DNA from: a virus
DNA: 21,791 nucleotides
Strand: one strand, 5' to 3'
IMG/VR virus record: IMGVR_UViG_3300031566_000422
Coordinates: 1 to 21,791 of that record
The position numbers were made by a program, and so were the translations under genes. Shown piece by piece: positions 2 to 16,316 of this stretch. The notes beneath the pieces were generated by a model. That model saw nothing but the letters and a program-made list of their open reading frames with translations. It was not told the origin of the DNA and searched no databases. Positions within the stretch are counted from its first letter, which is position 1; each line of letters starts with the position of its first letter.

Positions 2-214
2 TCCGGTAGGATACCACTGGACGAGGATCAGGAAGTGCTGAAAGAGAAACTTGAAGTCATAAAGAAAGAACTTTATCTGTTCCTGTTTGAGAATAAGTCG
101 GCACAGGGAAAGATTCCAGGATTTGAGGATATAGAAACAGAAAGCGTTTCCGAAGAAAAAAGTATCAGTAATTTTGAGGGTGAACCACCAGTACAGGAAC
201 CATCCGTCAACTAG
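2..214 (+). CDS. 3' end of an unrecognised protein (partial)
   Basis: An open frame enters from the left edge of the window and ends at a TAG at 212-214, leaving the last 70 codons. The visible tail is highly charged. It opens with a helical Glu/Lys-rich stretch (DEDQEVLKEKLEVIKKEL), then becomes an acidic, Ser/Glu/Pro-rich, probably disordered end finishing in EPPVQEPSVN. No domain can be recognised from this fragment. A hairpin terminator follows eight bases after the stop, so this gene is probably the last of an upstream transcription unit. It could be the tail of a structural or a DNA-metabolism protein; nothing visible decides between them. Confidence 0.7.
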   Translation, partial: SGRIPLDEDQEVLKEKLEVIKKELYLFLFENKSAQGKIPGFEDIETESVSEEKSISNFEGEPPVQEPSVN

Positions 215-221
215 ATTATCA

Positions 222-248
222 GGGAGCCTCCGGGCTCCCATCTTTCTT
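222..248 (+). terminator. Probable intrinsic terminator after the partial gene
   Basis: GGGAGCC at 222-228 pairs perfectly with GGCTCCC at 233-239 around a four-base TCCG loop. It is followed by a short, imperfect T-rich run (ATCTTTCTT, 240-248). The stem is GC-rich against an AT-rich background and sits immediately after a stop codon, as expected of a terminator. The T-run is broken by two C residues, so termination may be partial. The next ATG begins directly after the T-run, so the hairpin could instead lie in the leader of the sulfotransferase gene. Confidence 0.55.
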
Positions 249-854
249 ATGATCATATCAACAGATCACAGGATTGTCTTTATGGCAATACCAAAGACAG
301 GAACAAGAAGTATCTATGCATGCATGAAAGAGTACTTCGGGGGTATAGTGACCTCTGACCATGCCAGAAGCGTTCCACTTGGATATAAGCACTTCTACCT
401 GTTTACAGTAGTGCGTAATCCATACCACAGGGCAGTATCTATATGGTGGAGCACCTGTAAGCGGAATAATGACAAGAGACACTTTATAAGCAAGTACCTT
501 AAAGAAGATAATACATTCCTAAACTTCTGCAGAAGGATTGGAGATATTGATCAGGGAGAGAATCTTGTAGTGACACACCGGCAAGCAGAATGGTTAAGAT
601 CGAATTACTTTGATAAGATACTTAGATTTGAAAATCTTAATAAGGAGTGGCTTGACATGCCATTTAATACCAAACAGATCCCTCTTGATAATATTAATTC
701 AACAACGGCAGTTCGGAAAGGAAGCCTTGGGCCAGGGAATCCGGTAGCCCGTGGTCCATATGATCAATACCTTTGTAATGAAAGCATAGACCTTATTAAT
801 AAATACTACAGTCAGGACTTTATCCTGGCCGGGTATAAAAAAATAGAAACATGA
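249..854 (+). CDS. PAPS-dependent sulfotransferase-family protein (first copy)
   Basis: The 201-residue product carries the two signature elements of the sulfotransferase superfamily. The 5'-phosphosulfate-binding loop is IPKTGTRS at residues 14-21, and the 3'-phosphate-binding motif is VRNPYHRAVS at residues 55-64. Enzymes of this family move sulfate from PAPS to a hydroxyl or amine, most often on carbohydrates. The length fits the compact phage and bacterial Sulfotransfer_2-like forms. An upstream in-frame ATG at 174 exists, but it would overlap the previous gene and run through the hairpin, so I chose the ATG at 249, which places the first motif at the usual distance from the N-terminus. 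The stop overlaps the next start by four bases (ATGA), which suggests translational coupling. Family assignment is confident; the acceptor is unknown. A second, divergent copy lies at 2311-2898. Confidence 0.85.
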   Translation: MIISTDHRIVFMAIPKTGTRSIYACMKEYFGGIVTSDHARSVPLGYKHFYLFTVVRNPYHRAVSIWWSTCKRNNDKRHFISKYLKEDNTFLNFCRRIGDIDQGENLVVTHRQAEWLRSNYFDKILRFENLNKEWLDMPFNTKQIPLDNINSTTAVRKGSLGPGNPVARGPYDQYLCNESIDLINKYYSQDFILAGYKKIET

Positions 855-1732
855 AAGTAGGAGTATTTCATCCCTTCCTTGGGATCCCACTTATTGATGA
901 TCTTATGGAATCAGTGATAAGAGGATTTGAAAACTATGAACCAGATAGCTTTATCATCCGGAATAATCAATACCATGAATGCGATGTTGCTATACGCTTT
1001 GGTATGCATTCTTTAAAGTTCCCACATACAACAACCTACAGGGATATTATTGATCGTGCTCATACAGGTCGTACAGGAGTCATTGAACTTGGATGGATCG
1101 GTGATCGTGAGAAGTACTTTCAGTTTGGCTTTGGAGGGGTATCCGGAAGAGCAAAGTTCTACGTACAGCCTGAGCTCAGTATACGGAAAATATCAGAACC
1201 AGATTATTATCTTGCGGAGCAAAGAGAGAATACCAGTGATGACTATATATTATTGTGTGGTCAAGTGCCATGGGACACATCTGTTCAGCATATCGATTAT
1301 GAAGCATGGGTTCATCGTACAGCATATGATTTACGACAGATAACCAGTTTGCCAATTGTTTTCCGTCCTCACCCAAAACATCCGAGAGCAGTTCATACAA
1401 ATGCGCTTGTCTCTTTATTGGGTGTCAGGATCTCTGATCCGGCTAAGAGAACGCTTTATGAAGATCTCGATCAAGCACGATGCGTAGTAGTGTACAACTC
1501 TAATGCAGCTGTAGAAGCACTTATGCATGGAACACCGGCTATTACAATGGACCACGGCTCTATGGTATACTCTATTACACATCACGACCTAAGAATGGTT
1601 GATGATCCCTTGTTTCCGGATCGTGAAGTACTTGAAGACAAGTTGGACTTTATTATCAGCTGTCAGTGGACCGCTGAGGACTGGGCTCTGAATACACCAT
1701 GGAAGTCAACTAAAGAACAACTCAATGGATAA
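851..1732 (+). CDS. GT-B/capsule-synthesis-like glycosyltransferase
   Basis: The 293-residue product resembles the C-terminal half of GT-B-fold transferases of the KpsS/capsule-synthesis type. Seen in the sequence: a Rossmann-like strand with LLCGQVPWD at residues 134-142, RPHPKHP at 172-178, and YNSNAAVEALMHGTPAI near 215-231 followed by an acidic and His-containing stretch. The RPHP element and the N-S-N-A-A-x-E-A-x-x-x-G-x-P-A element are typical of these sugar transferases, where they line the nucleotide-sugar pocket. The N-terminal half is short for a full GT-B enzyme, so it may use a bound acceptor or be divergent. Its start overlaps the upstream sulfotransferase stop by four bases and its end overlaps the next gene by eight, placing it inside the glycan-modification operon. 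Donor and acceptor sugars cannot be read from sequence. Confidence 0.7.
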   Translation: MKVGVFHPFLGIPLIDDLMESVIRGFENYEPDSFIIRNNQYHECDVAIRFGMHSLKFPHTTTYRDIIDRAHTGRTGVIELGWIGDREKYFQFGFGGVSGRAKFYVQPELSIRKISEPDYYLAEQRENTSDDYILLCGQVPWDTSVQHIDYEAWVHRTAYDLRQITSLPIVFRPHPKHPRAVHTNALVSLLGVRISDPAKRTLYEDLDQARCVVVYNSNAAVEALMHGTPAITMDHGSMVYSITHHDLRMVDDPLFPDREVLEDKLDFIISCQWTAEDWALNTPWKSTKEQLNG

Positions 1733-2318
1733 ATGGGATAAGTCATATCAAATATGTAAGACAGGATGGAAACAGGGCATGCCTGAGACTGCTTGTGGTG
1801 GTGGTGCCCGTAAGGAGAAAGCAACTTATCTTATTCAGTGGCTCAGTGACTTTATAAAGGCAAATGATATTCAATCAATAGCTGATATAGGATGTGGGGA
1901 TTTTAACTGGATGTCAGAGGTTGCCTTTGGAGATGCTCAATATATTGGCTACGATTGGGTATTTAAGCGAGACATGAATTCTCTCATGATGGCTGATCCG
2001 AGGCTTTCCTTTATTGAATGTAATGCAGCTCTATGGCCATTGTTTCCCGCAGACCTTATGATATGTCGAAGTGTTATGATTCACCTGAATAGCGAAGAGG
2101 CTAAATTATTGCTCGATAACATGCTCCGATCAAAACCGAAGTACCTACTTATTACATCCTATGATATTCCATCCAATTATGGCAGGAATGTAGTTAACTA
2201 TGCCCCACTGAATATTGAACTGCCACCATTTGGTATTAAAGATCCTATTCAGCGTGTATATTCCGATCCGGAGAACAAAACAAATAAATACCTTAACCTA
2301 TACCATTTAAATGTTTAG
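1725..2318 (+). CDS. Class I SAM-dependent methyltransferase
   Basis: This 197-residue protein has the glycine-rich SAM-binding motif I as IADIGCGDFNWM at residues 52-63. It follows an N-terminal helix with the ETACGGGARKEKA segment, and YIGYDWV sits near 73-79 as the acidic second strand. A later strand, PADLMICRSVMIHL, corresponds to motif IV. The CGDFNWM form recalls a methyltransferase family that I associate with polysaccharide loci; this is recall, not a search. No DNA-methylase catalytic motif such as DPPY or NPPF is visible, so a small-molecule or glycan acceptor is more likely than DNA. The start overlaps the upstream transferase by eight bases and the end overlaps the second sulfotransferase by eight, indicating tight co-translation. 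Confidence 0.75.
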   Translation: MDKWDKSYQICKTGWKQGMPETACGGGARKEKATYLIQWLSDFIKANDIQSIADIGCGDFNWMSEVAFGDAQYIGYDWVFKRDMNSLMMADPRLSFIECNAALWPLFPADLMICRSVMIHLNSEEAKLLLDNMLRSKPKYLLITSYDIPSNYGRNVVNYAPLNIELPPFGIKDPIQRVYSDPENKTNKYLNLYHLNV

Positions 2319-2898
2319 ATCAGACAAATATAAATTCTATTTCGTGCATATTCAGAAGACGGGTGGTACATCTATTAAAAAAGCATTACTCCCATTTGCA
2401 AATCCTAAGCAACTATACTTCGATGGGGAGAAGGTAACAGATGGTCCAGGATTTCGTCCACATCAACCAATGACATATCCACTGGCAAGAGAGTATTCCA
2501 ATTACTTTAAATTTGCTATTGTACGCAATCCTTGGGAGCGTCATGCATCGATCTGGAAGTTCCTTAAAGGACGAAGAAGTACAGACATCGGAGACATCGA
2601 TTTTGACACCTATATATATAAGGTGTATAATAACGAACTTGGGATCTATTCAAAAAGCCAATTAAGCTACGTTTGTGACAACGGATTCTGGATGGTAGAT
2701 TACATCGGAAGGTTCGAATCTCTTGACCTTTCATTTGATTATATATGTGATAAGATTTGTATTGACCGGCCACCACTCCCACATTATAAGAATCAGGGTA
2801 ACTACGATTGGAGATTGATGTATAATCCAGAAACCCATGAAATGATAAAGGAACATTGTAAAGCAGATATTGAAGAATTTAATTATTCATTTGAATGA
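2311..2898 (+). CDS. PAPS-dependent sulfotransferase-family protein (second copy)
   Basis: The 195-residue product begins with a textbook phosphosulfate-binding loop, FVHIQKTGGTSI at residues 11-22. The 3'-phosphate-binding motif VRNPWERHASIW follows at 71-82. Both match the Sulfotransfer_2 pattern more closely than the first copy does. Apart from those motifs the two proteins differ widely, so they are unlikely to be a recent tandem duplication and probably act on different acceptors or positions. A His/Pro-rich stretch (FRPHQPM, 48-54) between the motifs may belong to the acceptor site. The gene overlaps the methyltransferase upstream by eight bases and the next gene by four. Family call is strong; the substrate is unknown. 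Confidence 0.88.
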   Translation: MFRSDKYKFYFVHIQKTGGTSIKKALLPFANPKQLYFDGEKVTDGPGFRPHQPMTYPLAREYSNYFKFAIVRNPWERHASIWKFLKGRRSTDIGDIDFDTYIYKVYNNELGIYSKSQLSYVCDNGFWMVDYIGRFESLDLSFDYICDKICIDRPPLPHYKNQGNYDWRLMYNPETHEMIKEHCKADIEEFNYSFE

Positions 2899-3224
2899 GC
2901 ACACATAAGATGTTTGTGATTCCAATATATTTATTGGATTCAGAAGAAGAAGATGAACGTGATCACATGAAGGACCTTGGTGTTGAGAGCGAGGATCCAT
3001 TGACTATAAAGCAAACTGCTTTTCATACGATCTTTATAGATTCTTATTGGATCGATCCGGACAAGAATCGTCATACAGGAATAAAGGATATAGTGTTCTA
3101 TGTGAACGGGATTTCATTCCGTACACCATTCTCTCAGAAGATAATTAATGAAGTTATACATCCAGCTATGATGATAAGAGCAGGATCGTTGGAAGAGGAA
3201 CAATTTATAACAGGACCGAACTAA
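2895..3224 (+). CDS. Unrecognised 109-residue protein
   Basis: I do not recognise this protein. It has an acidic segment early on (LLDSEEEDERDHMKD, residues 14-28). A mixed hydrophobic core with alternating strand-like stretches follows (AFHTIFIDSYWID and DIVFYVNGISF). There is no signal peptide or membrane helix. It is bound into the cassette by a four-base ATGA overlap upstream and a one-base TAATG junction downstream, so it is almost certainly translated. The N-terminal half could be compared with phage small proteins of unknown function that accompany structural or accessory genes. No catalytic pattern is visible. Confidence 0.6.
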   Translation: MSTHKMFVIPIYLLDSEEEDERDHMKDLGVESEDPLTIKQTAFHTIFIDSYWIDPDKNRHTGIKDIVFYVNGISFRTPFSQKIINEVIHPAMMIRAGSLEEEQFITGPN

Positions 3225-3448
3225 TGAACAGAAAACAATTACTCATTCGGATCGAAAAGATCTGGGAAAAACATGCCACTGGTAAAAGGAACATGATTGC
3301 TACCTTTCTCCCGCATGCTAATCAAGCAGCGATGTTTAAGGAGCTCGCTGATCTCTTTGATGAGATAACTCCCTACTCAGATCCCGTTACGATAGATAGT
3401 GTACGAAAAGCAGTTAACGATGTGATACAAGATGAAAAGATATCCTAG
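3224..3448 (+). CDS. Unrecognised 74-residue helical protein
   Basis: This is a short, mostly helical protein starting MNRKQLLIRIEKIWEKH. It is translationally linked to the upstream gene through a TAATG stop-start junction, the main support for its being real. Composition alternates basic and hydrophobic residues, with two likely amphipathic helices separated by a Pro-containing turn (ITPYSDPVTIDSV). No known domain, metal-binding Cys pattern or membrane segment is visible. It may be a small regulatory or binding partner of a cassette enzyme, but that is only positional inference. Confidence 0.55.
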   Translation: MNRKQLLIRIEKIWEKHATGKRNMIATFLPHANQAAMFKELADLFDEITPYSDPVTIDSVRKAVNDVIQDEKIS

Positions 3449-3468
3449 GATATTTATAATATTTCTTT

Positions 3469-4335
3469 ATGAACTATTGGTATATAAAAGATGATTTCGT
3501 TCGTGCGAGAACAAATCAATCAACTTGGTATGACGGATTCTCTCCTGATGCCATGGGAGATGGTGCCCTACATACAGTATCCGTTGGACTTGTAAAGAAT
3601 ATGGATAACCTTATCACAAGGACCATATGGTTACTCAGGGAGCGCAAACGCTGGCCGGATAGCGCCATGCAGGGTAATGAGCATCATATAGCAAAGAACC
3701 GGTTAGATAAGCTCCTACACCCAAAGAAATACAGGTGGCAACACCGTATGTCACGGGACCCATTTACAGCATTAATATTTGTTATGGAAGTAAAGGGTTG
3801 TGTCTGGAGTTCCAGAATCAAGGATATAAAGATCCCATGGAGAATACAACGTCCTGATTTCTATTACTGGGTGAGGTTCATGGCAACCAAGGAACCTAAG
3901 TATAAGAAGAGATATGAGTTCTGGACAAACATCTCCCTGACTCTATTCGGACGATGGTATCCAATGTATGCTCTTCGCTTGCAGACATGGAAAGCATATT
4001 CTGCTAAGAGTGAAAAGATTAAGAAGAAACTACATAAACTTATTCCGGATTGGAATATGTATTGCTGTATCCTTATTGATAAGCCATGCATCTACAAACC
4101 TGGGTTCATTGAAAAAGCTCAGAAATATATAGCTAAAACTAAGTGCCAGTGGAGTTATAAGGAATGGATAACACCAACAATGTTTTACTCTACTGGAAAA
4201 TATTTTGATCTTGGATATTGGGATGATGATATAGAATTTACGAAAGGTAATGTCTTACGTGAAGAGGACGAGATTAAACTTGATAAGGATGAACTTGACT
4301 GGGCATTAAAAACTGTAATGAATGTTGGGGGGTAA
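3469..4335 (+). CDS. Unrecognised 288-residue aromatic-rich protein
   Basis: This is a substantial soluble protein without a recognisable family. It is unusually rich in Trp and Tyr, starting MNYWYIKDDF and including RMSRDPFTALIF, FYYWVRFM and WDDDIEF. A basic central part (KSEKIKKKLHKL) and a long acidic C-terminal stretch follow. The mix of aromatic and charged residues would suit carbohydrate binding or a nucleotidyl- or sugar-handling enzyme, but no catalytic signature is visible. It starts twenty bases after the preceding stop without an evident Shine-Dalgarno and overlaps the next methyltransferase gene by fourteen bases. Its place among sulfotransferase, glycosyltransferase and methyltransferase genes makes a part in the same modification pathway plausible. 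It is the largest protein of unknown function in the cassette. Confidence 0.6.
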   Translation: MNYWYIKDDFVRARTNQSTWYDGFSPDAMGDGALHTVSVGLVKNMDNLITRTIWLLRERKRWPDSAMQGNEHHIAKNRLDKLLHPKKYRWQHRMSRDPFTALIFVMEVKGCVWSSRIKDIKIPWRIQRPDFYYWVRFMATKEPKYKKRYEFWTNISLTLFGRWYPMYALRLQTWKAYSAKSEKIKKKLHKLIPDWNMYCCILIDKPCIYKPGFIEKAQKYIAKTKCQWSYKEWITPTMFYSTGKYFDLGYWDDDIEFTKGNVLREEDEIKLDKDELDWALKTVMNVGG

Positions 4336-4927
4336 AGGAGTAATCCTTAAATATATCGATAGGCCGGAAGCCAAGACATACCTTAATATAGGTAGTGGAT
4401 CTGATAAGACAGCACGGTTCCTTATAGACCGGGATAAGAAAGTCACTGATATAGATATAAAACGCACCCATTCCTTCAAGCATGAGAACTATTCTTTTAT
4501 AGAGTGGAACTTGGAACTTGGTATTCCTGTTGGTGGATTTGATGTTATTATTGCAAACCACGTTCTAGAGCACATCCGGAATACTGGCATTTTTCTATTA
4601 GGATGTAATAGTGCCCTGAATGATGATGGTGTGCTTTGCATTGCTGTACCGCCATTTAAACATGCCCTGGCTGGTGGTCATGTCCATGTATTTAATATGG
4701 GTATCCTGATGTATAATCTCGTGCTTACTGGATTCAATGTAGTAGATGGACATTTCAAAAAAGAAGGATATAATATCATTGGAATAGTAAAACCACGGCA
4801 TGATAAACTACCTAAACTAAACTATGATAAAGGTGATATTGATATCCTTGTTCGTAATGGATTATTACCTTCATTCTTTCGTCAAGGAATGAATGGAGAC
4901 ATGAAAATGTATAATTGGATTATATGA
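4322..4927 (+). CDS. Class I SAM-dependent methyltransferase (UbiE/Methyltransf_23-like)
   Basis: The 201-residue protein shows a SAM-binding motif I, YLNIGSGSDKTARFL, at residues 20-34. An acidic strand with DIDI at 43-46 follows, then FDVIIANHVLEHIRN at 73-87 as motif IV and LNDDGVLCIAVP near 99-110 as the following strand. The ANHVLEH pattern is typical of UbiE-type and glycan or lipid-modifying methyltransferases rather than DNA methylases. The start codon lies inside the preceding gene with a fourteen-base overlap; no better in-frame start is present. It is unrelated in detail to the methyltransferase at 1725-2318, so the cassette carries two different methylation activities. It is the last gene before the AT-rich gap at 4928-4975. 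Substrate unknown. Confidence 0.75.
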   Translation: MLGGKGVILKYIDRPEAKTYLNIGSGSDKTARFLIDRDKKVTDIDIKRTHSFKHENYSFIEWNLELGIPVGGFDVIIANHVLEHIRNTGIFLLGCNSALNDDGVLCIAVPPFKHALAGGHVHVFNMGILMYNLVLTGFNVVDGHFKKEGYNIIGIVKPRHDKLPKLNYDKGDIDILVRNGLLPSFFRQGMNGDMKMYNWII

Positions 4928-4975
4928 TCTAAAACATATAATTAAATTATATAAAAATAAATTATATATTTATAT
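4928..4975 (+). promoter_or_regulatory. AT-rich gap, possible promoter for the SSB/co-chaperonin pair
   Basis: Forty-eight bases of almost pure A and T separate the modification cassette from the SSB-like gene. It contains ATTAAATTATAT at 4941-4952, a 12-mer that recurs exactly in the gaps at 5889-5900 and 11774-11785. It also contains AAATTATATATTT at 4959-4971, which recurs at 5892-5904. A TATATTTA at 4965-4972 is one base from the Bacteroidota -7 box, but no upstream TTTG is present at the right distance. If the box were used, transcription would begin inside the start codon region, so the promoter may lie at the first copy of the 12-mer instead. Promoter activity is inferred from position and recurrence only. 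Confidence 0.35.
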
Positions 4976-5398
4976 ATGGAATCATATCAATTAAGTGGAA
5001 AGGTTGACGTAGTATGGGAAACCAAGAAAGTATCAGAGAAATTCCGTAAGAGGGAATTTGTCGTAATAGTCAATAGCAGTACGGTTAGTGGGACTTTTGT
5101 TGACTACATAAAACTACAGCTCGTACAGGACAAATGCGAGCTTCTGGACGGTGTTTATCCCGGAGACATGGTTGTGGTCCGCTGGGCCCTTGCAGGTCGC
5201 AGATGGGGCAAAAAGCCTGAAGAGAAATACTTTACCAATGTAGAGTGCCTTGAGATAACAGTTGTTACTCGTGGTGATGGTGTAGGAGCTTCAGATTCAA
5301 TTGAAGATGAACTTCCACTGGAACCGGAAGATACAATATTTGATGTACCAAAAACAGAAAGTATCCCTGATGAGGGAGTAGATGATTTACCATTCTAA
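4976..5398 (+). CDS. DUF3127-like OB-fold single-strand-DNA-binding protein
   Basis: The first hundred or so residues fit the DUF3127 pattern of Bacteroidota OB-fold proteins. Elements in order: an initial strand (YQLSGKVDVVWE), a conserved basic patch (FRKREFVVIV), a glycine turn before the third strand (GVYPGDMVVVRWALAGRRW), and an aromatic end (KYFTNVECLEI). The C-terminal forty residues are acidic and disordered, and end in DDLPF at 136-140. That matches the SSB C-terminal tip, which in bacterial SSBs recruits replication and repair partners. The protein therefore probably coats phage single-stranded DNA during replication or recombination. It is followed nine bases later by the GroES-like gene, and the pair may form one unit. 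The family call is from memory of the domain pattern. Confidence 0.72.
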   Translation: MESYQLSGKVDVVWETKKVSEKFRKREFVVIVNSSTVSGTFVDYIKLQLVQDKCELLDGVYPGDMVVVRWALAGRRWGKKPEEKYFTNVECLEITVVTRGDGVGASDSIEDELPLEPEDTIFDVPKTESIPDEGVDDLPF

Positions 5399-5407
5399 AT
5401 TATAATT

Positions 5408-5842
5408 ATGAAAGCAGCAAAAGAATCAAAAATGAAACCCGGAGAGTTCAAGTTTCAACCTATTGGAGACTGGGTAGTACTTGATAAAATTGACATCCTC
5501 TCTAAGATGGATAGAGCGGCCAAGAGAGCTGGTCTTAATATCGTTGGCGCTCCTGATCCTAAGAACATCCTGGAAGCTGAAAAGAAAGCAGCATCGGAGT
5601 ATATGAGCTATGTAGACTATACAAAAAATGCTCTTGATGTATACGATGGCAAGCATGGATGGCAGGGTATTGTTAAAGCTATCGGTCCATTGATCGATGA
5701 AGATCTTGGACTGAGAGTAGGTCAGAAAGTATACTACCGTGGTAATACCGGAGAGCCAATGATACATAATAAAAAACTCTTCTGGATGATGAAGCCACAT
5801 GAGATCTTCGGATCAGCACCAAAGAACGAACACACTATATAA
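5408..5842 (+). CDS. GroES-like co-chaperonin
   Basis: This 144-residue protein follows the GroES layout. FQPIGDWVVLDKI (residues 16-28) corresponds to the family's PLxDRVxV strand. GIVKAIGP (87-94) matches the GxVxAxG strand. LRVGQKVYY (102-110) matches the VGDxVLF strand, and a final LFWMMKPHEIF segment ends the barrel. Between the first two elements lies an insertion of about fifty residues rich in Lys and Ala, longer than the GroES mobile loop. T4 gp31, the phage co-chaperonin that adapts GroEL for capsid protein folding, also has an enlarged loop. I infer that it caps the host GroEL-type ring to fold the phage capsid protein. It sits between the SSB-like gene and the regulatory gap. Confidence 0.78.
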   Translation: MKAAKESKMKPGEFKFQPIGDWVVLDKIDILSKMDRAAKRAGLNIVGAPDPKNILEAEKKAASEYMSYVDYTKNALDVYDGKHGWQGIVKAIGPLIDEDLGLRVGQKVYYRGNTGEPMIHNKKLFWMMKPHEIFGSAPKNEHTI

Positions 5843-5872
5843 TTTTATTTTATAATAAATAATTATATATAA

Positions 5873-5905
5873 TTTGACTTGTATATGAATTAAATTATAT
5901 ATTTG
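5873..5905 (+). promoter_or_regulatory. Bacteroidota-type primary sigma promoter
   Basis: TTTG at 5873-5876 is followed by 21 bases and then TATATTTG at 5898-5905. This matches the established Bacteroidota primary-sigma consensus, TTTG at -33 and TAnnTTTG at -7 with a spacer of about 19 to 21. It lies in an AT-rich gap downstream of the GroES-like gene and upstream of the packaging genes. Transcription would begin at about 5909-5912. It is the only place in the window where I found both boxes intact. Confidence 0.7.
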
Positions 5906-5908
5906 TTG

Positions 5909-5989
5909 TGCTCGATTACAGTGTGGAGTTAATTTAAAGTCATCGTCTTTGAAATATGAAAGCCAGGTCAGATTGATCTGGCTTTTGTT
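5909..5989 (+). ncRNA. Candidate short RNA or attenuated leader between promoter and terminator
   Basis: The predicted start just after the promoter and the terminator ending near 5989 delimit a transcript of about 80 bases with no start codon followed by a useful frame. The first fifty bases contain only a weak AAAG/CTTT hairpin (5937-5940 with 5948-5951 region), then the terminator stem. It could be a small phage RNA, or a leader in which termination is relieved to express the packaging operon beginning at 6015. The ends are predictions and no RNA family was recognised. Confidence 0.35.
5959..5989 (+). terminator. Intrinsic terminator in the gap before the packaging genes
   Basis: AAAGCCAGGTC at 5959-5969 pairs with GATCTGGCTTT at 5975-5985, eleven pairs with one G-U, around a five-base AGATT loop. 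TTTTGTT (5983-5989) forms the U-rich tail. It lies only about 50 bases downstream of the promoter and 26 bases upstream of the next start codon. It can end transcripts arriving from the SSB/co-chaperonin genes, and it also stands in the path of the promoter just before it. Confidence 0.8.
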
Positions 5990-6014
5990 ATAACCAAAGA
6001 AACTTGTCAGGAGC

Positions 6015-6422
6015 ATGCATACAGAAAACATAGAAATCGTCACCACTAAAGAGAGGTTTTTTTTGGAGTATTTGACGCTTAAAAAACCAATCATTGACAG
6101 TATGCTTACGAGACTTAATCGTAAGAAGACTACCCTGAGTGATGCACCTCTGAGAGTGCTGGCTCAGTTACTTTATTACTATGATCTTTTTAAGGATGAA
6201 CAGGATGATGAGAAGAGATGGGCAATGGTATTTTCACGGGAGATCAAGATTGATATATTGGGTAAATTAAAACTTAAAGAACATTATCTGAATAATTATC
6301 TTTCACATTTACGGGCAATTAAAATTTTGGAAGATAAGAAAATTAGAAATCTGTTTGTTGTTTCTGCAGATGATGATCTGGCTCTAAGCTTTACATTTAA
6401 ACTCAATGGACATAAAGAGTAA
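6015..6422 (+). CDS. Unrecognised 135-residue protein, possible winged-helix
   Basis: This is the first gene of the packaging block. A CAGGAG sequence at 6008-6013 lies one base before the ATG, unusually close for a Shine-Dalgarno. Predicted helices include LSDAPLRVLAQLLYYYDLF (residues 41-59) and a later pair, LKEHYLNNYLSHLRAIKIL, followed by a strand-like end (LALSFTFKL). This helix-helix-hairpin order resembles a winged-helix DNA-binding domain, which would suit a regulator or a DNA-packaging accessory, but I did not recognise a family. A run of eight T residues at 6057-6064 lies early in the frame. The next gene overlaps it by seventeen bases. Confidence 0.6.
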   Translation: MHTENIEIVTTKERFFLEYLTLKKPIIDSMLTRLNRKKTTLSDAPLRVLAQLLYYYDLFKDEQDDEKRWAMVFSREIKIDILGKLKLKEHYLNNYLSHLRAIKILEDKKIRNLFVVSADDDLALSFTFKLNGHKE

Positions 6423-6684
6423 AGAATTTAACAGGATCGTTCGTAAGATTGCTCGTATAAACGAAACCGATCCGGAAATTGTTAGGGATGTTATAATATC
6501 ACAATTTGAATGTGCAAGAGCTAACATGAAGAGGGCGGATCATTATAATGATTTTTTTCCTTATATTAAGCTACCCTATTTATTCACCTTTAAGGTGCTT
6601 CCAGGCAAAAGAAACTTCTTTGTCAAGAAGGCCAAAAAAATAATAGACGATGTTTATTCTGAATCAGGGCAGTCCGACAATTGA
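6406..6684 (+). CDS. Small basic protein, possibly HU/IHF-like
   Basis: This 92-residue protein has two N-terminal helices (FNRIVRKIARIN, then DPEIVRDVIISQFECARANM). A strand-rich part follows with FPYIKLPYLFTFKVLPGKR at residues 49-67. That helix-turn-helix-then-strands order, with a basic end after the strands, recalls the HU/IHF nucleoid proteins in which the motif GFGxFxVR follows two helices. The long DNA-embracing arm of HU is absent, so it would be a reduced relative or an unrelated packaging accessory. It overlaps its upstream neighbour by seventeen bases and its downstream neighbour by thirty-five. The resemblance is structural inference only. Confidence 0.5.
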   Translation: MDIKSKEFNRIVRKIARINETDPEIVRDVIISQFECARANMKRADHYNDFFPYIKLPYLFTFKVLPGKRNFFVKKAKKIIDDVYSESGQSDN

Positions 6685-7204
6685 ACCAAAGGCGCTATTC
6701 ATTCCAGAATTTAAGAAGGTATGGAGTCGTGATACTTCAAAATCAAAGGCAAGGGCCAATAAGGATCTTGCCTATGTTTATTTTATGGCTGACTTTCAAA
6801 GTGAATATAATATATATGGTATAGAGAAATCTTCTATGGTTGGCCTTGAGATCATGAAGGACAAGAACTTTGAACCTGATGAACTCATGCTGGATGCTAT
6901 TAAAAAGTATGAGCGCATACAGGAAACATATTCCATGAGGTATCTTAAGTCTGTACGTGCTACAGTAGATTCTTTAATGAAGTTCTATAACGACCTTCAG
7001 TATCAATCGGGACAGGATGATATGAAAGATTATAATCCTAAGAAGGTTACTGATGCACTCAAGGATGTTGAATCAATTATTGAGAAGATAGAAAAGTGGG
7101 AAAAGAAAGTACGTGGTGAGGATGAAGAAATGCAGATACGTGGAGGTGGGAAGGTTGGTTTATTTGAAGATTCACATAACGCAACTTGGTTAAAGCAGAA
7201 TTAA
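6650..7204 (+). CDS. Candidate terminase small subunit or packaging accessory
   Basis: This 184-residue protein lies immediately before the large terminase, the usual site of the small subunit. It opens with a short extended region containing LFIPEFKKVWSRD (residues 16-28). A helical middle and a C-terminal coiled-coil-like run (KVTDALKDVESIIEKIEKW) follow. A Gly-rich end (RGGGKVG) leads to the last residues. Small terminase subunits are commonly helical oligomers, which fits, but I saw no helix-turn-helix that I can name. Its stop and the terminase ATG share one base (TAATG at 7202-7206). The ATG at 6650 forces a 35-base overlap with the upstream gene, and no nearer start was found. Confidence 0.5.
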   Translation: MFILNQGSPTIEPKALFIPEFKKVWSRDTSKSKARANKDLAYVYFMADFQSEYNIYGIEKSSMVGLEIMKDKNFEPDELMLDAIKKYERIQETYSMRYLKSVRATVDSLMKFYNDLQYQSGQDDMKDYNPKKVTDALKDVESIIEKIEKWEKKVRGEDEEMQIRGGGKVGLFEDSHNATWLKQN

Positions 7205-9309
7205 TGGAAGTTGAACAGGAAGTAATTGAAACCGGGTATTACAAGAATACCCCGCATTACAATACCGAGGAGTGGTGTCAGTCGTCATTGCATTTCAAAG
7301 AGTTTGGTCGTTATACAAATTATCCAGTGAATTCCCATAGCTCAAGTAACTACTATAAGTTTTGGGAAGAAGAGGCTCGTAGATCTCTTTATGGTTATAA
7401 TATTGGCCGGGATTGGATTCCTGGCTATTTTTATTGGTACCTGAATTACTCACCTATATTTATTGCTGTTGAGATTGATGCTCCACAAACGGATGATATA
7501 TTAAAGATGGATCTTGATATATTAACCCAGCAAGCAAGGGCAGACAGGGAGTTTAACTTTCCGGATTTCTGGGATGGTGATTATCAGTATTTCCATTATC
7601 TCGAAGATGCTGAACGATCCGGAACCCATGGAGCAGTTATTAAAAGCAGGCGTAAGGGATATTCCTATAAGGGTGGTGGGATGTGTAATAGGAATTATTA
7701 CTTGATCCCAGGATCTAAGTCCTATGTGTTTGCTGATGAAAAGGAATATCTTATTAGCGATGGCTTGTTAACTAAGGCGTGGGAGATGATGGACCATGTT
7801 GAGTCTCATACACCATGGGGGAAGCGCAGGCAATATCATAATTCTATAATGCACAAGAGAGCCTCTTATAGAATCGATCATGGAGGGTTAAGCATAGAGA
7901 AAGGGTTTAAGAGTGAGATTATCGGAGTTACCCTTAAAAACAACTGGAACAAGGCTCGTGGAAAGGCAGGTAAGTTGGTTATATTCGAGGAATCGGGTAA
8001 GAACCCACATTTACTTAAAGCATGGAATATCTCCCTAAAGAGTATGCAGCAGGGCCGTTTAACGTATGGTCTGCAACTTGCTTTCGGAACAGGAGGTACG
8101 GAGGATGTCGATTTCATGGGTCTTGAACAGTTGTTTTATGAGGGCGGAGCACATAACGTACATATGGTCCCTAATGTATGGGATGATGTCGCAGGAGGAA
8201 AGTGTGGTTACTTTGCATCTATAGAAAAGAACCTTGAGGGTACAATGGATAAATTTGGTAATACCAAATTGGATATTGCCCGTTCACTTACAGATGCCTC
8301 AAGAGACAAGGTTATAAAAGCCACTAAGAATCCTGAGATTATAACCCGGTTCATTGCTGAGGAACCACGTAAACCACAGGAAGCGATCATGCGTCTTGGT
8401 GGGACCATCTTCCCAATAAATGATCTTAAGGAACATCTGAACAACCTAAGATCAAATCCTGAGAAGTTTGAAGAACAAGAATGGGTTGGTAAGCTAGTGA
8501 TTAATCCGGAAACTGAGAAGATAGAGTGGAAGCTGGATCCCGATGCACGACCTATCAGGGTATTCCCACAAACTGATAAGCGGGATATTGACGGAGCGAT
8601 TGTTATCTATGAACATCCGGTAGCAAATTCAGAAGGTATCATTCCTTATGGAATATACTTAGCCGGTAATGATACATACGATCATGATGAGTCAACAACC
8701 GATTCCCTTGGGAGCACCTTTATTTTAAATAAACTTACTGAACGTATTGTTGCAGAATATACAGGAAGACCTAAAACTGCAAATCAATACTATGAGAACG
8801 TAAGACGTTTATTGTTGTATTATAATGCAAAATGCAATTATGAAAACAACTGGAAAGGATTATTCACTTATCTCAACGGCAGACATCACGCCCACTTATT
8901 ATGCGACACACCAAAAATTGTCCATGACAAGATCTACGATAAGTCATTACTCAACCGTGGTGCCGGTACACCAGGAACACTTCCTATACAAAAATGGGGA
9001 AGAGAACTCATTCTGATATGGCTTACAACACTCGTTGCACCAGGAAGCGAGAGACTCAACCTGCACACTATACGTAGTGTACCTCTACTACAAGAATTGA
9101 TCTACTGGCACAAGCTTGGTAACTTTGACCGTGTAGATGCAATTCAGATGTTAATGATATTAAAAGAAGATGTTCAAAATATTATTCCTGAAGAGGAAGC
9201 AGCGCAACAAATGGTATCACCCTTCTTTCAACGCATGGAGATGTTTAAGGAGAAGTATAGAACAACAAATGATCCTTTTGCTGTTATAGATAAAAGGATG
9301 CAAGCTTAG
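7204..9309 (+). CDS. terL: Terminase large subunit
   Basis: This is the packaging ATPase-nuclease that drives phage DNA into the prohead through the portal. The product is 701 residues from the ATG at 7204, which follows the small-subunit stop in a TAATG junction; a TTG at 7186 would also read in frame but lies inside the previous gene. Visible elements are an ATPase core with SRRKGYSYKGG at 148-158, acting as a divergent Walker A, and the hydrophobic-acidic Walker B LVIFEESGK at 258-266. A C-terminal nuclease-like region carries LAGNDTYDHDEST near 486-498, supplying paired acidic residues for metal binding. The length suits terminases of large Bacteroidota phages. The portal follows 26 bases downstream. 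Assignment is strong on motif order and neighbours. Confidence 0.88.
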   Translation: MEVEQEVIETGYYKNTPHYNTEEWCQSSLHFKEFGRYTNYPVNSHSSSNYYKFWEEEARRSLYGYNIGRDWIPGYFYWYLNYSPIFIAVEIDAPQTDDILKMDLDILTQQARADREFNFPDFWDGDYQYFHYLEDAERSGTHGAVIKSRRKGYSYKGGGMCNRNYYLIPGSKSYVFADEKEYLISDGLLTKAWEMMDHVESHTPWGKRRQYHNSIMHKRASYRIDHGGLSIEKGFKSEIIGVTLKNNWNKARGKAGKLVIFEESGKNPHLLKAWNISLKSMQQGRLTYGLQLAFGTGGTEDVDFMGLEQLFYEGGAHNVHMVPNVWDDVAGGKCGYFASIEKNLEGTMDKFGNTKLDIARSLTDASRDKVIKATKNPEIITRFIAEEPRKPQEAIMRLGGTIFPINDLKEHLNNLRSNPEKFEEQEWVGKLVINPETEKIEWKLDPDARPIRVFPQTDKRDIDGAIVIYEHPVANSEGIIPYGIYLAGNDTYDHDESTTDSLGSTFILNKLTERIVAEYTGRPKTANQYYENVRRLLLYYNAKCNYENNWKGLFTYLNGRHHAHLLCDTPKIVHDKIYDKSLLNRGAGTPGTLPIQKWGRELILIWLTTLVAPGSERLNLHTIRSVPLLQELIYWHKLGNFDRVDAIQMLMILKEDVQNIIPEEEAAQQMVSPFFQRMEMFKEKYRTTNDPFAVIDKRMQA

Positions 9310-9335
9310 GAAAGACAAACTTTAAATTTACTACC

Positions 9336-11759
9336 ATGGCAATGAGACTTCATCAGTTCCCGGCTCAAAAGAAAACCCTGACACAGAAAACTGAAAAGTG
9401 GGGAAAGGAATGTGTTCTGGCTGGTATAACGATTACAACGAGCGATACCAGTAAGATACGCAAGAGTCGATCAGCAAAGAAACTTAACTATGACCTTATA
9501 AAGGGTATCATAGATGAACATGATATTGAGAGAGCATTTAACCCAATGGGTATTCGTGGTGTGCATTTCCCAGCTAAGACACAGAACTATCCTATTGAAG
9601 TTGCAAAATTTAATGTTCTAAAGGGAGAGGAATCAAAGCGTAGATTTGACTGGAGGGTACGATCAGTTAATGAAGATGCTATTAGTGAAAAGGAAACTCA
9701 GATGGGTGAGCAGATATTTGGTCTGCTGGCTCAGGAGATACAAAATGGAAATTATACCGAGGAGCAAGTTTCACGTAAGTTAAAGAAGATCGAGCATTAC
9801 CAGAAGTATAACCTGCAGGATTATGGTGAGAAGGTTGGGAGCAGGATTATAGAATATTTCTGGCATACACAAAAACTTAAAGAAGTCTTCTCAAGTGCAT
9901 TTTATGATGTTCTTGTTGGTGCTGAAGAAATATACAGTGTTGATATCTCTCATGGGGAACCTGTTGTTAAGAAAGAAAACATCCTTGGTATATCAACATT
10001 TGGAATGGGGGATAGTCATAAGGTGGAAGATTCAGATATAATTGTCTCTGATAACTATGTATCAGTAGGAAAAGTGATAGATGAGTTTTGGGAAGAGTTA
10101 GATGATAACGAGATTGATCAACTTGAAGAGGGAGCCCGAAGAAACTATATGTCTGGAGATGTAGTATTAGCTGGCCCATTTGATGCTACACAGGAAGCAC
10201 AAGATATGTCCACATCACAACTTATTACTGTAGATGGTAAGGATATATGGGCTTATGATGGAAACTATGATCAGGACGGCAATATCCGTGTGATACGTGT
10301 AGTGTGGAAGTCACGTAGAAAGATAGGTAAACTTACATATTACGATAAGCAAGGAGATGAACAGGGAACTATTGTTGATGAGAACTTTCCAATAGATCAA
10401 TTCAAAGGACAGGGATGGACCGTAGACTGGAGATGGATCAATGAGTGGTGGCAGGGATATCGTATAGGTCCTGATATGTATAAGCGTATTGAACCGTTAC
10501 CAAGGATAGGAACAAAGATGAGCAATCCCTCAATCTGTAGTTCACCATATTGCGGCACCGTATATTCTATAGGTGGAACGGGTGTTAGTCTAATGGATCG
10601 AGTAAAACCTTATAAATATCTTTACAATGTATACATGAAGCGTACTGAACTTGCTTCAGCACGTAATAAAGGAGTAATAGCAGAATTGGATCTGGCTGAG
10701 ATCCCGGATGGATGGGATGAAGAACTTGTCATGATGTTTGCCGAAGCAAATGGGTACATGATTAAAGATTCATTTAAAGAAGGTAAAAAGGGTAATGCAA
10801 CAGGCAAACTTATTGGAACCGTTAAGCAACGTGGATCCGATATACTAAATCTTAACTCAGCTGATGTGATCCGGGCAAACCTGGAACTAGCACGATATGT
10901 CAAGAATGAACTTGCAGAAGTAGCCGGTGTGTCTCCTCAGCGTGAGGGGGATATTGGAAACAGGGAAACCAAAGGTGGAGTAGAGATGGCTGTTACAAAT
11001 AGTTCACATGTAACAGAAGAGTGGTTTGCCTTGCATGATAACACAAAAATAAGAGTCCTGCAGTTGCTTGTTGAAACAGCCAAACATGCATGGAGATATG
11101 CCGAGGGAGAGAATGCTAAGAAGCTGCAATATGTTGATGATGGACTTATCACACATCTTATAACTGTTGATGGTAGACGGTTTGCAGAAACAGAGTATGG
11201 TTATTATGTCTCAGATGGACGTAATGATGCAGAGCTTATCAATGCAATCAAAACCCTGGCACAAGCCGCCCTGCAAAACGACAAGGCAACATTTAAGGAT
11301 ATCTTCGCTATCTATCGTGATACTTCAGTATCCAGTATGATTAATAAGCTTGAACATAGCGAAGAGCAATCTAATCAGAGAGAGGATGATGCACGTAAGG
11401 AGCAACTAGAAAGTAATGAGCGCATGCAGGAAGCAATGAATCAAATTAAGCAGATGGAGCTTGAACAGAAGGAGCGTATTGAGATGAATAAGATCGAAGC
11501 ATCATTGATTGAAACTGAAATGCAAATACGTGGTCGTTTGGCAGAAGTTGAACTCATGGAAGAGGGAAGTAAGGACAGAGAAAAACTAGAGTTTGAACTT
11601 ACTAAACTAAGAGAGACACTTGACCTGAAAAGAGATGAGATGAGAGAGAAGTCAAAACAGTTTTATGATGGCTTAAAATCACAAGAGGATCGAACACGAC
11701 TGCAAATTAAAAGCGCTGAAACCATAGCATCCAAGCGACCTAAAGCGAAAGTTATATAA
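9336..11759 (+). CDS. Portal protein
   Basis: The 807-residue protein directly follows the large terminase and precedes the scaffold and capsid genes, the standard portal position. The N-terminal part has YPIEVAKFNVLKGEESKRRF at residues 85-104, resembling the conserved L-x-G-E segment near the start of many portals. A long mixed body follows with LDRVKPYKYLYNVYMKR-like helices typical of the stem. The last 145 or so residues are a Glu/Lys/Met-rich coiled coil (from about 660), which could sit in the crown or contact DNA. The size matches portals of crAss-like phages. It forms the twelve-fold ring at one capsid vertex, contacted by terminase during packaging and then by the connectors encoded at 15594-19018. 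Confidence 0.85.
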   Translation: MAMRLHQFPAQKKTLTQKTEKWGKECVLAGITITTSDTSKIRKSRSAKKLNYDLIKGIIDEHDIERAFNPMGIRGVHFPAKTQNYPIEVAKFNVLKGEESKRRFDWRVRSVNEDAISEKETQMGEQIFGLLAQEIQNGNYTEEQVSRKLKKIEHYQKYNLQDYGEKVGSRIIEYFWHTQKLKEVFSSAFYDVLVGAEEIYSVDISHGEPVVKKENILGISTFGMGDSHKVEDSDIIVSDNYVSVGKVIDEFWEELDDNEIDQLEEGARRNYMSGDVVLAGPFDATQEAQDMSTSQLITVDGKDIWAYDGNYDQDGNIRVIRVVWKSRRKIGKLTYYDKQGDEQGTIVDENFPIDQFKGQGWTVDWRWINEWWQGYRIGPDMYKRIEPLPRIGTKMSNPSICSSPYCGTVYSIGGTGVSLMDRVKPYKYLYNVYMKRTELASARNKGVIAELDLAEIPDGWDEELVMMFAEANGYMIKDSFKEGKKGNATGKLIGTVKQRGSDILNLNSADVIRANLELARYVKNELAEVAGVSPQREGDIGNRETKGGVEMAVTNSSHVTEEWFALHDNTKIRVLQLLVETAKHAWRYAEGENAKKLQYVDDGLITHLITVDGRRFAETEYGYYVSDGRNDAELINAIKTLAQAALQNDKATFKDIFAIYRDTSVSSMINKLEHSEEQSNQREDDARKEQLESNERMQEAMNQIKQMELEQKERIEMNKIEASLIETEMQIRGRLAEVELMEEGSKDREKLEFELTKLRETLDLKRDEMREKSKQFYDGLKSQEDRTRLQIKSAETIASKRPKAKVI

Positions 11760-11879
11760 AAAAATTATATAATATTAAATTATATGTTTTAACTATATAG
11801 AATGTACCATAGTAACGGTGGTATACTTGAAATGAGGTCTATTATTAACTAAAATTGTAACTATTGAAAGGAGAAAAAA
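11760..11879 (+). promoter_or_regulatory. Leader region of the scaffold-capsid operon
   Basis: This 120-base gap begins with AT-rich sequence containing the shared 12-mer ATTAAATTATAT at 11774-11785. TATGTTTT at 11783-11790 resembles a -7 box, with one mismatch to TAnnTTTG, but no TTTG lies at the matching upstream distance. Farther on, TACCA and TGGTA arms at about 11806-11824 can form a five-pair hairpin. A 16-codon open frame spans 11802-11852. The gap ends with a strong Shine-Dalgarno before the scaffold start. I infer a start of the late structural unit here; the evidence is positional. Confidence 0.4.
11867..11873 (+). promoter_or_regulatory. Strong Shine-Dalgarno for the scaffold gene
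   Basis: AAAGGAG at 11867-11873 lies six bases before the ATG at 11880 and is nearly complementary to the 3' end of 16S rRNA. Most genes in this window lack such a site, in line with Bacteroidota, where Shine-Dalgarno use is weak. It fixes the scaffold start and suggests strong initiation. Confidence 0.7.
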
Positions 11880-13157
11880 ATGGCAGAAAAAGCAGCAGAA
11901 AATTCTGGTGACGATGTGTTATTTGGAGGCATCGATATAGCAGGATTGGAAGAATCGCTACTTACTGTTGACGTTGGCCCTGATGATCCAGTGGTCACTG
12001 AAACAATTAAGGAAGTGAGCAAAGACGGGGGTGGGGACCCGGCAAATCCAGATGATCCACCGGCAGGTGAGGAACCTGGAGCAACGAAAGAACCAGAGAC
12101 AAAACCACCAGATCTACTCGAAGTAGATAAACCAATAGCAGCAAGCGGAGAACCAAAAGAAAAAATATCTGATCCTATAGACGGTGAAGATAAATCAGGG
12201 AAGGGTAAAGGGGCCGCAGAAGAGATTGAATCTCCGATATATCTCCATGCTGCAACTCTTCAGGAAAACGGCCTCTTACCCAACTTTGATCTTGATGAGC
12301 TTAAAAGTCTTAAAACAGATGAAGAACGATTCGTTAAGATCAATACTGTAATACAGAAGAATTATGATGAAGCAATAACGGAAGGTATCGAAAAGGAAAA
12401 AGCAGTAATAGGCGAAGCCCTTAAAATATATGAGGGAATTAAAGCCGGTGTTAATCCTGAAGATCTTGCCGCTAATGCAAGCCTTGAAGAGCAGTATGGA
12501 AAACTTGAGGTAAAGGACCTTGAGGATAGTGAAGAAAACCAGGAGGCTATCTATGCTGATTCCCTGTTTATGAAAGGACTTTCTGAAGCTAAAGTAAAGC
12601 AGCTTATTGATGTTTCAAAGAACAATGAAACACTTCTTGTTGATGCGACTGAGGGATTGAAAGAGATTAAAGGTGAGATAAAGAAGGAGAGAGATGCTTT
12701 ATTTGCGGAGGCTGAACAAAGAAAAAAAGTCAAAGAAAAGCGTGATCAGGAAACGCAAGAGAAGGTTAAGACTACTGTTGGGAGTATTAAGGAGATTATT
12801 CCGGGAGTAGAAGTTACCAAAGCGGAGCAGGATACCCTTATCAAAAACATGACCGTACCTGTAAAATACACTGAGAATGAACAAGGACAACAGGTGCCTG
12901 TAAGTAGAGTTATGGAACTACGGGCTAAGGATCCTATATCATTTGAAATGAGATTGAATTATTTTATAGAAAAAGGATTCTTTGATAAGGATGCCAAGTT
13001 TGATCCTATATTAAAAAAGGCTGAGACAAGTGCTTCTAAAAAGTTTCTTCAAAAAATGAGTTCTGATAAACCCGAAGTTACAGGGAAACCTGCAGCTGAG
13101 GAAGATGAGAATAAAGGGGAACCAAAGTTTACGTTTCCTACAAACATTTCTATTTAA
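11880..13157 (+). CDS. Scaffold-like internal head protein
   Basis: The 425-residue protein lies between portal and capsid, the usual scaffold position, and has scaffold-like composition. The first 110 residues are acidic, Pro/Gly-rich and presumably disordered (PANPDDPPAGEEPGATKEPE). A central helical region is rich in Glu and Lys, with coiled-coil stretches (KGEIKKERDALFAEAEQRKK and around). The end is again disordered before a short hydrophobic finish FPTNISI. Scaffolds direct capsid assembly and then leave or are cleaved. No protease motif is visible here or elsewhere in the window, so removal may be by exit rather than cleavage. It follows the AT-rich leader and carries the strongest Shine-Dalgarno in the window. 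An alternative is a packaged internal head protein. Confidence 0.65.
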   Translation: MAEKAAENSGDDVLFGGIDIAGLEESLLTVDVGPDDPVVTETIKEVSKDGGGDPANPDDPPAGEEPGATKEPETKPPDLLEVDKPIAASGEPKEKISDPIDGEDKSGKGKGAAEEIESPIYLHAATLQENGLLPNFDLDELKSLKTDEERFVKINTVIQKNYDEAITEGIEKEKAVIGEALKIYEGIKAGVNPEDLAANASLEEQYGKLEVKDLEDSEENQEAIYADSLFMKGLSEAKVKQLIDVSKNNETLLVDATEGLKEIKGEIKKERDALFAEAEQRKKVKEKRDQETQEKVKTTVGSIKEIIPGVEVTKAEQDTLIKNMTVPVKYTENEQGQQVPVSRVMELRAKDPISFEMRLNYFIEKGFFDKDAKFDPILKKAETSASKKFLQKMSSDKPEVTGKPAAEEDENKGEPKFTFPTNISI

Positions 13158-13183
13158 TATAAATCGATTTAAATTAACACACA

Positions 13184-14671: not shown

Positions 14672-14694
14672 AACACTATTAAACGGAGATTAAC

Positions 14695-15597: not shown

Positions 15598-16316
15598 CAG
15601 GAGCAGAAATAATAAGTGCGTTTAAGGTTTATTATGATAGGGTAACGAGTTTCTCGGCACCTGGTTATCGTGAAGCTGATATCTTATTGTTTCTGAATAA
15701 TGCACAAGATCAGTTCATAAAGGACAAAGTGTTTGGAGGAAACTTTCAGCCGCCTGCTTTTGAAGATAATCAGAAGCGGGTGGTTGATATCCTTCCACTA
15801 ACAAAAAGAGCATTAATTGCATCATCACAGATTTCTCCGGTAACATTGTTTGGTGTAAAAGCATATGGAGCTAATAAATCAGCTCATCTAACAGGGAGGG
15901 GTCTTTATACAGTTCAGTTTGAAATACAAGTAACAAGAACCAATCCTGTAATAACAGAAGAATATGTGCGATGTGAAATGATTAAAAGCGAACATATAGG
16001 TCGCTTCGTTCAAAATGCAGCCAATAGGACACATTTCATTTATCCTAAATTGGTTGAAGAAGTTAATAAGTATTATGTGATATGTGATTATTATACTGAT
16101 TCAGTGCTTAATGCACGAGCTACAGTAGTTGTAAAACCATATCCTATTACTGCCGGGATAGGAGAGTATGATGGAACCTACGGTGCAGGTGTCATGAATC
16201 TACATAATTCAGTTCATCAGGAAATTGTAGATCTAGCGGTACGACAAGCATTACAAAGCATCTCAGATCCACGGTTTCAAACTAATGTTGCACAGGGTCA
16301 AATAGACACTAATTAA
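15594..16316 (+). CDS. Connector-like protein, paralog 1
   Basis: The 240-residue protein shares a pattern with the products of 16316-17203 and 18332-19018. An N-terminal helix carries LLFLNNAQDQFIKDKVF (residues 31-47), then a middle strand-rich part, then a C-terminal helix containing VHQEIVDLAVRQAL (207-220). Such small proteins after the capsid gene form head-to-tail connector or ring layers in Bacteroidota podovirus-like phages. The start overlaps its upstream neighbour by four bases (ATGA) and the end meets the next gene in TAATG. The alignment with paralog 3 starts at the first residues, MTGAEI and MTAQEM, supporting both starts. Function as a neck ring is inferred from order, size and paralogy. 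Confidence 0.65.
   Translation: MTGAEIISAFKVYYDRVTSFSAPGYREADILLFLNNAQDQFIKDKVFGGNFQPPAFEDNQKRVVDILPLTKRALIASSQISPVTLFGVKAYGANKSAHLTGRGLYTVQFEIQVTRTNPVITEEYVRCEMIKSEHIGRFVQNAANRTHFIYPKLVEEVNKYYVICDYYTDSVLNARATVVVKPYPITAGIGEYDGTYGAGVMNLHNSVHQEIVDLAVRQALQSISDPRFQTNVAQGQIDTN

Follow-up and report, generated by a model that had tools for sequence, protein, structure and literature searches.

The DNA analyzed here (the window) is a 21,791 nt fragment of a virus from an environmental sample, corresponding to positions 1-21,791 of IMG/VR record IMGVR_UViG_3300031566_000422. Near its left end lie two genes, STA (249-854, 201 amino acids (aa)) and STB (2311-2898, 195 aa), assigned by profile score, structure model and conserved residues to the Sulfotransfer_2 family of sulfotransferases using 3′-phosphoadenosine 5′-phosphosulfate (PAPS). 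Both frames are open at these coordinates and start with ATG; like all window features described below, they lie on the + strand. Between them are the genes for a glycosyltransferase-like protein of the surface or capsular polysaccharide type (851-1732, 293 aa) and for a putative S-adenosylmethionine (SAM) methyltransferase, MT1 (1725-2318, 197 aa), while STB is followed by g5 (2895-3224), a small phage protein found in five of the eight equivalent regions compared (see below). Consecutive genes overlap by 4, 8, 8 and 4 bases, hence STA, the glycosyltransferase, MT1, STB and g5 are probably co-translated. A terminator-like hairpin (GGGAGCCTCCGGGCTCCC) with a T-rich tail, at 222-239 just before STA, lies at the left border of this cassette. 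A preliminary description of the window had placed two sulfotransferases in one operon, and the layout agrees: STA and STB bracket the glycosyltransferase and the methyltransferase in an overlapping four-gene operon.

Pfam searches placed both proteins in PF03567 (Sulfotransfer_2), with scores (35.1 bits, E 2.1e-8 for STA; 52.6 bits, E 9.4e-14 for STB) exceeding the curated cut-off of 22 bits. Both also matched PHROG 3347, “Galactose-3-O-sulfotransferase” (E 1.7e-10 and 3e-23, respectively). No match to PF00685 (Sulfotransfer_1) was obtained at E 1 in the window or in the records of 15 relatives, in searches that detected the controls; membership in that family was thus rejected. Each protein carries a PAPS-binding loop (AIPKTGTRS in STA, HIQKTGGTS in STB) and a VRNP motif (VVRNPYHR and IVRNPWER). 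A profile made from STA, STB and two relatives retrieved, with one iteration, 106 homologous open reading frames (ORFs) from viral contigs. The residues kept were K16, H38, R56, N57, S64 and E128 in the 39-row alignment of STA and K16, H51, R72, N73, S80 and E136 in the 40-row alignment of STB. K16 is the PAPS loop lysine in both proteins, and R56/S64 and R72/S80 form the respective 3′-phosphate sites; the arginine, asparagine and serine are invariant across the 39-40 aligned relatives, and the lysine (or an arginine) is present in nearly all. A histidine between the two motifs (H38 in 38 of 39 rows, H51 in 38 of 40) is, we presume by analogy with the heparan sulfate 2-O- and 6-O-sulfotransferases (HS2ST and HS6ST), the candidate catalytic base. 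Together, these data support placing STA and STB, as PAPS-type sulfotransferases, in PF03567, a family of carbohydrate type, sulfate transfer being their predicted activity.

AlphaFold2 models of STA and STB (mean predicted local distance difference test scores of 88.3 and 89.3; predicted template modeling score of 0.86 each) gave weak Foldseek matches, the top ones being sulfotransferases. With VIA-align, STB matched HS6ST (5t03) with a Z of 10.6 (3.7 Å, 170 residues), tied with several other structures, and STA matched HS2ST (4ndz) with a Z of 10.1 (3.3 Å, 160 residues), tied with SULT1C3. Z values to 5t03 and 4ndz ranged from 9.8 to 10.6 over 160-174 residues, and the rows listed were sulfotransferase-fold enzymes. 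Single-sequence searches of the PDB with STA and STB returned nothing, HS6ST being reached by sequence only with profiles of the STA and STB alignments (E 9e-4 and 5e-4). Judging from the models, both proteins share the PAPS sulfotransferase fold. The two enzymes of the preliminary description were thus recovered by profile search and by structure prediction alike, and the possibility it had raised that both belong to non-sulfotransferase P-loop families was rejected on account of this fold and of the PF03567 scores above cut-off. Its remark that the two proteins differ outside the motifs requires qualification: they are only 26% identical (over 150 aa, E about 1e-6), yet their homology extends through most of both proteins, and they have one common predicted fold.

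In an IQ-TREE phylogeny of 43 rows, STA belongs to a starred clade (96/91) whose eight rows are all viral, and STB to a mixed cellular-viral group. Constraining the two as sisters costs 57.9 log-likelihood units (approximately unbiased test, p = 0.0005). On this basis an in-place duplication of one sulfotransferase was rejected, with caution over the many long branches flagged in the tree, which also leave the exact sisters of STA and STB uncertain. That the two arose by recent duplication at this site thus appears very unlikely, and the tree points to two separate acquisitions, in line with the earlier suggestion that two copies imply two substrates or two positions. Single-sequence searches of IMG/VR for close relatives of STA, STB or the glycosyltransferase returned only the same phage.

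As for the genes bracketed by the sulfotransferases, the 851-1732 product matches Capsule_synth (16.1 bits) and Glycos_transf_1 in Pfam, and the models TIGR04331 and TIGR04396 (surf_polysacc), all below cut-off. The assignment of MT1 as a predicted methyltransferase is solid through PHROG 3382 (E 9.4e-23), and is accompanied by a below-cut-off match to Methyltransf_25 and a weak one to a pseudaminic-acid-associated methylase. An MT1-sulfotransferase pairing is seen in the window and in contigs L015/L016, L046 and L197; most MT1 relatives lack it, and a fixed pair was accordingly rejected. No membrane-type hydrophobic segments are predicted in STA, the glycosyltransferase, MT1 or STB, suggesting that the four products act in the cytoplasm. 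Pfam searches of the ten leftmost window genes gave no match to the components of gtrABC serotype conversion (flippase, bactoprenol glucosyltransferase, membrane glucosyltransferase). In contig L046 (1517-9026), from a different phage in the metagenome that yielded contig L004 (see below), apparent head-tail genes are preceded by a homologue of MT1, a sulfotransferase of the STA clade and a Sulfotransfer_3 gene.

Metagenome contig L003, the product of an independent assembly, matches window positions 95-15688 with 99.96% identity; STA and STB are intact in it, with a single, silent base difference in STA. Since L003 shows identical joins, this region is no chimaera, and an assembly artefact was ruled out. 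The genes for terminase, portal, g16 and major capsid protein (7186-14671) mark the phage as belonging to the Crassvirales. In a comparison with a phage collection, terminase and capsid protein matched Crassvirales best, at 35-43% identity (cr118_1, cr85_1, DAC15 and Cellulophaga phage phi14:2), the terminase large subunit (TerL) reaching 43% with cr118_1 and the major capsid protein (MCP) about 37% with DAC15, cr85_1 and phi14:2, all classified in this order. The gene order TerL-portal-g16-MCP matches that of phi14:2. By terminase, portal and capsid homology and crAss gene order, the phage is therefore assigned to the Crassvirales, and from these matches its host is presumably a member of the Bacteroidota. 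The preliminary description had missed this affiliation, as well as the island described next. Closer terminases (67-100%) are present in 15 environmental contigs.

Comparison of such contigs revealed a variable island upstream of the terminase gene, in which several cassettes replace one another, the operon among them. The island is bordered on the left by the 3′ end of a conserved gene (2-214, homologue of L012 118-600) and on the right by genes for a DUF3127 protein (ssDNA-binding in PHROG) and a GroES-like cpn10 (4976-5842), present in all eight regions compared. Between these borders gene content differs from phage to phage. At the place of the hairpin, L012 has another strong hairpin with a T run and a different sequence (590-660). 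Eight distinct phages have about 6 kb or more upstream (the window, L005, L012, L016, L010, L017, L217 and L222), and four of them, including the window, have a sulfotransferase in the slot, representing four lineages. The L012 island contains GT2-like, radical-SAM, two methyltransferase, PF03567 sulfotransferase and uridine diphosphate (UDP)-sugar dehydrogenase genes, and L005 a shorter version of the same; L015/L016 have a Sulfotransfer_3 (PF13469) gene adjoining an MT1 homologue. A sulfotransferase is missing from the islands of L010, L222 and L017, where glycosyltransferase-like, radical-SAM and methyltransferase genes are found; genes of these types or for UDP-sugar dehydrogenase occupy most slots without a sulfotransferase. 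As the L005/L012 enzyme is a third PF03567-type lineage, adjoining cellular sequences in the tree, the slot appears to have gained sulfotransferases of this type on three or more occasions, and in addition one from another family. Cassette genes of L005 and L012 are 67-82% identical at the aa level, versus 93% for their portal proteins. Their sulfotransferases differ with a pN of 0.215 and a pS of 0.776, values indicative of purifying selection.

The right part of the island has also changed at the strain level. Contig L004, 99.98% identical to the window, has about 1.14 kb more (L004 80-1218) between g6 and the gene for a 288 aa protein, at window position 3467. The gene concerned (L004 44-1045) encodes a multi-spanning membrane protein with about 6 hydrophobic segments and no family match. 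Since the window and L003 hold only its first codons (3433-3468 in the window), this gene has been lost from both. The 288 aa protein (3469-4335) has no Pfam or PHROG match and clusters with L004 alone; among the regions compared, it occurs only in this phage and near-identical contigs. It is followed by MT2 (4322-4927), the second putative SAM methyltransferase of the island (Methyltransf_23, 33.5 bits, cut-off 27). In L010, the cassette gene for UDP-sugar dehydrogenase (5206-7725) is split by a Hint/LAGLIDADG intein, which suggests that mobile elements target the glycan cassette.

Searches of the window and 15 relatives, all possibly incomplete records, detected no gene for adenosine 5′-phosphosulfate (APS) kinase (PF01583) or PAPS reductase (PF01507). 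Within this limit, phage-borne PAPS synthesis was rejected for the lineage, and the host would have to supply PAPS, as the preliminary description had argued. Some unrelated viral contigs with multiple sulfotransferases carry APS-kinase-like genes. The best of these, in G021 (L184 1893-2715), aligns with adenylyl-sulfate kinases along almost its whole length and adjoins a gene resembling nicotinamide mononucleotide adenylyltransferase, near a Sulfotransfer_1 gene. Others are found in L185, L186 and L188 (the last from a 129 kb region of Stenotrophomonas phage vB_SmaS-DLP_6, hereafter DLP6), beside or fused to a HIGH-motif nucleotidyltransferase. The viral APS-kinase-like proteins could serve in PAPS supply or, several being nucleotidyltransferase fusions, in NAD salvage.

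What the operon might modify can be approached from the surroundings of related genes. In other viral contigs, genes up to two positions from a sulfotransferase include those for FkbM and TylF methyltransferases, CMP-sugar synthetases, GT25, GT61, UDP-galactopyranose mutase and mannose-phosphate isomerase, whereas genes at least six positions away on the same contigs are mostly for replication or nucleotide metabolism (pyrophosphatase, helicases, thymidylate synthase), with few sugar genes (80 genes in each set, families being among the 25 commonest per set). Cellular relatives are located in polysaccharide export loci of marine Flavobacteriia: that of Tamlana nanhaiensis lies beside an ABC-2 exporter, a chain-length protein and GT2, and the locus in a Flavobacteriales metagenome-assembled genome includes a Wzx-like flippase, Wzy_C, three homologues and two Sulfotransfer_3 genes. 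The sugar-gene neighbors and the polysaccharide export loci favor a glycan as target; the gene types in the slots of crAss-like relatives and the matches of both enzymes to HS2ST and HS6ST point the same way.

We tentatively propose, at slightly below an even chance, that the two sulfotransferases, the glycosyltransferase and MT1 build or decorate a glycan, most likely a host envelope polysaccharide, and thereby hinder further phage adsorption. The glycosyltransferase would add a sugar, MT1 would methylate it, and STA and STB would sulfate two different positions or sugars with PAPS from host sulfate assimilation, all four working on a cytoplasmic precursor yet to be exported or built into virions. 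The prime candidate for this glycan would be the capsule or O-antigen of the Bacteroidota host; its alteration at a late stage of infection might reduce adsorption by sister virions and by rival phages. Sensitivity to crAss-phages in Bacteroides is set by capsular polysaccharide (PMC12118408), and sugar clusters of cyanophages were proposed to change the host polysaccharide against other phages (PMC7824862). Several points weigh against this proposal. The sulfotransferase activity is itself a prediction from profiles and models, the glycosyltransferase assignment depends on below-cut-off matches, and the neighbor-gene counts, confined to the commonest families, are purely descriptive. Phage DLP6 has its single sulfotransferase gene surrounded by replication genes rather than sugar genes. 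The window has no recognizable flippase, bactoprenol transferase or polymerase, so that the operon would have to depend on host machinery. Finally, the location beside virion genes suits decoration of the virion equally well.

This last alternative, in which a capsid, appendage or tail protein would be glycosylated in the cytoplasm, methylated and sulfated, gaining negative charge or a shield, is possible but rather unlikely. The terminase, portal and capsid genes follow the island directly and share its strand, the four enzymes have no predicted membrane segments, and a gene for a collagen-like protein, probably a tail fiber, is found from 21453 onward; however, the nearest cellular homologues are in envelope polysaccharide loci, and the multi-spanning membrane protein of the L004 island better fits an envelope glycan. 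In our judgement these two features, along with the role of the capsule in crAss infection, make the host envelope the preferable target. It is improbable that the sulfated product is a small molecule or secondary metabolite, or a modified host protein or lipid, rather than a polysaccharide. The fold is common to small-molecule enzymes, SULT structures rank close, and the L012 and L010 cassettes contain radical-SAM enzymes and that of L005 an isochorismatase-like protein; against this, STA and STB belong to PF03567, not PF00685, and their surroundings are dominated by sugar genes. Hypermodification of phage DNA, with glycosylated bases sulfated to evade restriction, would account for glycosyl-, methyl- and sulfotransferases side by side, and nucleotide glycosylation and sulfation systems are stated to have been reported in phages (PMC10829341). 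It is considered very improbable in view of the polysaccharide type of the neighbors and of the absence of a thymidylate-synthase-like gene from ten larger records of relatives or sulfotransferase carriers, among them G008, a relative of 94 kb, although the incompleteness of the window genome bears on this search for a base-modification entry enzyme. Equally remote is the idea of decaying cargo without current function: a neighboring membrane-protein gene is deleted in the window strain and L003 and kept in L004, but neither sulfotransferase frame is broken, none of the conserved catalytic residues is missing, the only base that differs from L003 leaves the protein unchanged, and nonsynonymous changes are far fewer than synonymous ones between the orthologous L005 and L012 enzymes.

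Phage sulfotransferases as such were already known. PHROG 3347, classed as phage moron or auxiliary metabolic gene and with a functional name that is annotation only, is matched by both STA and STB; what sets the window apart is the presence of two non-sister members in one operon, in the Crassvirales. The DLP6 enzyme (KU682439) is 27% identical to STB over 96% of its length, but is encoded by a lone gene; for STA, a search of 50,697 phage records yielded nothing at E 0.01. Phages of OM43 also encode PAPS sulfotransferases, but these are single Sulfotransfer_3 (PF13469) genes outside the Crassvirales, although a PF13469 gene does occupy the L015/L016 slot; the role of phage sulfotransferases was called unclear (PMC10580990). 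HS2ST and HS6ST resemble STA and STB in fold, PAPS loop, conserved histidine, 3′-phosphate motif and a VIA Z of about 10, but share only about 14-23% identity over the aligned core, and differ in the substrate-binding part, which is not alignable; STA and STB lack a membrane anchor. Capsular polysaccharide modification clusters of cyanophages and jumbo phages are likewise polymorphic, combine glycosyltransferases with sugar-modifying enzymes and are proposed to pre-empt other phages; the paper describing them makes no mention of sulfotransferases (PMC7824862), whereas the window cluster is short and centered on two. Sulfotransfer_2 and Sulfotransfer_3 genes are absent from six reference Crassvirales records, and our literature searches found no paper joining “crass-like” with “sulfotransferase”, nor any linking sulfotransferases with superinfection, base modification or the Bacteroidetes surface. 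Three things look new: the occurrence of sulfotransferases in the Crassvirales, the combination of two non-sister enzymes with a glycosyltransferase and a methyltransferase in a single operon, and the cassette island.

Crassvirales belong to the most abundant groups of phages, and how well they do is linked to the capsules of their hosts. By setting two sulfotransferases beside a glycosyltransferase and a methyltransferase, the operon offers a concrete, testable target, a sulfated glycan in infected cells or virions. More speculatively, environmental crAss-like phages may swap sulfotransferases of several lineages, glycosyltransferases and methyltransferases in this slot, so that related phages would give the host envelope glycan (or their virions) differing patterns of sulfation and methylation and compete by means of these, and multi-sulfotransferase arrays (up to seven genes), some with an APS-kinase-like gene, may be a common phage strategy. 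One motif scan confirmed at least 176 sulfotransferases in IMG/VR. Some viral contigs carry, within about 17 kb, arrays of seven (L068) or four (L043, L062, L078 and L088) sulfotransferase ORFs of the Sulfotransfer_2 type, interspersed with glycosyltransferase and methyltransferase genes.

Some further features of the window lie outside the cassette. The collagen-like protein at 21453-21791, with G-x-T repeats and probably a tail fiber, continues past the window end. The GroES-like co-chaperonin gene (5408-5842) lies near the terminase gene, and chaperonin genes upstream of terminase are also found in cr118_1 and phi14:2. The terminase genes of L012 (9144-12314), L013, L014, L015, L016 (1429 aa) and L017 are about 1-2.2 kb longer than that of the window, and their match is split, as inteins would give; the window terminase has no such insert.

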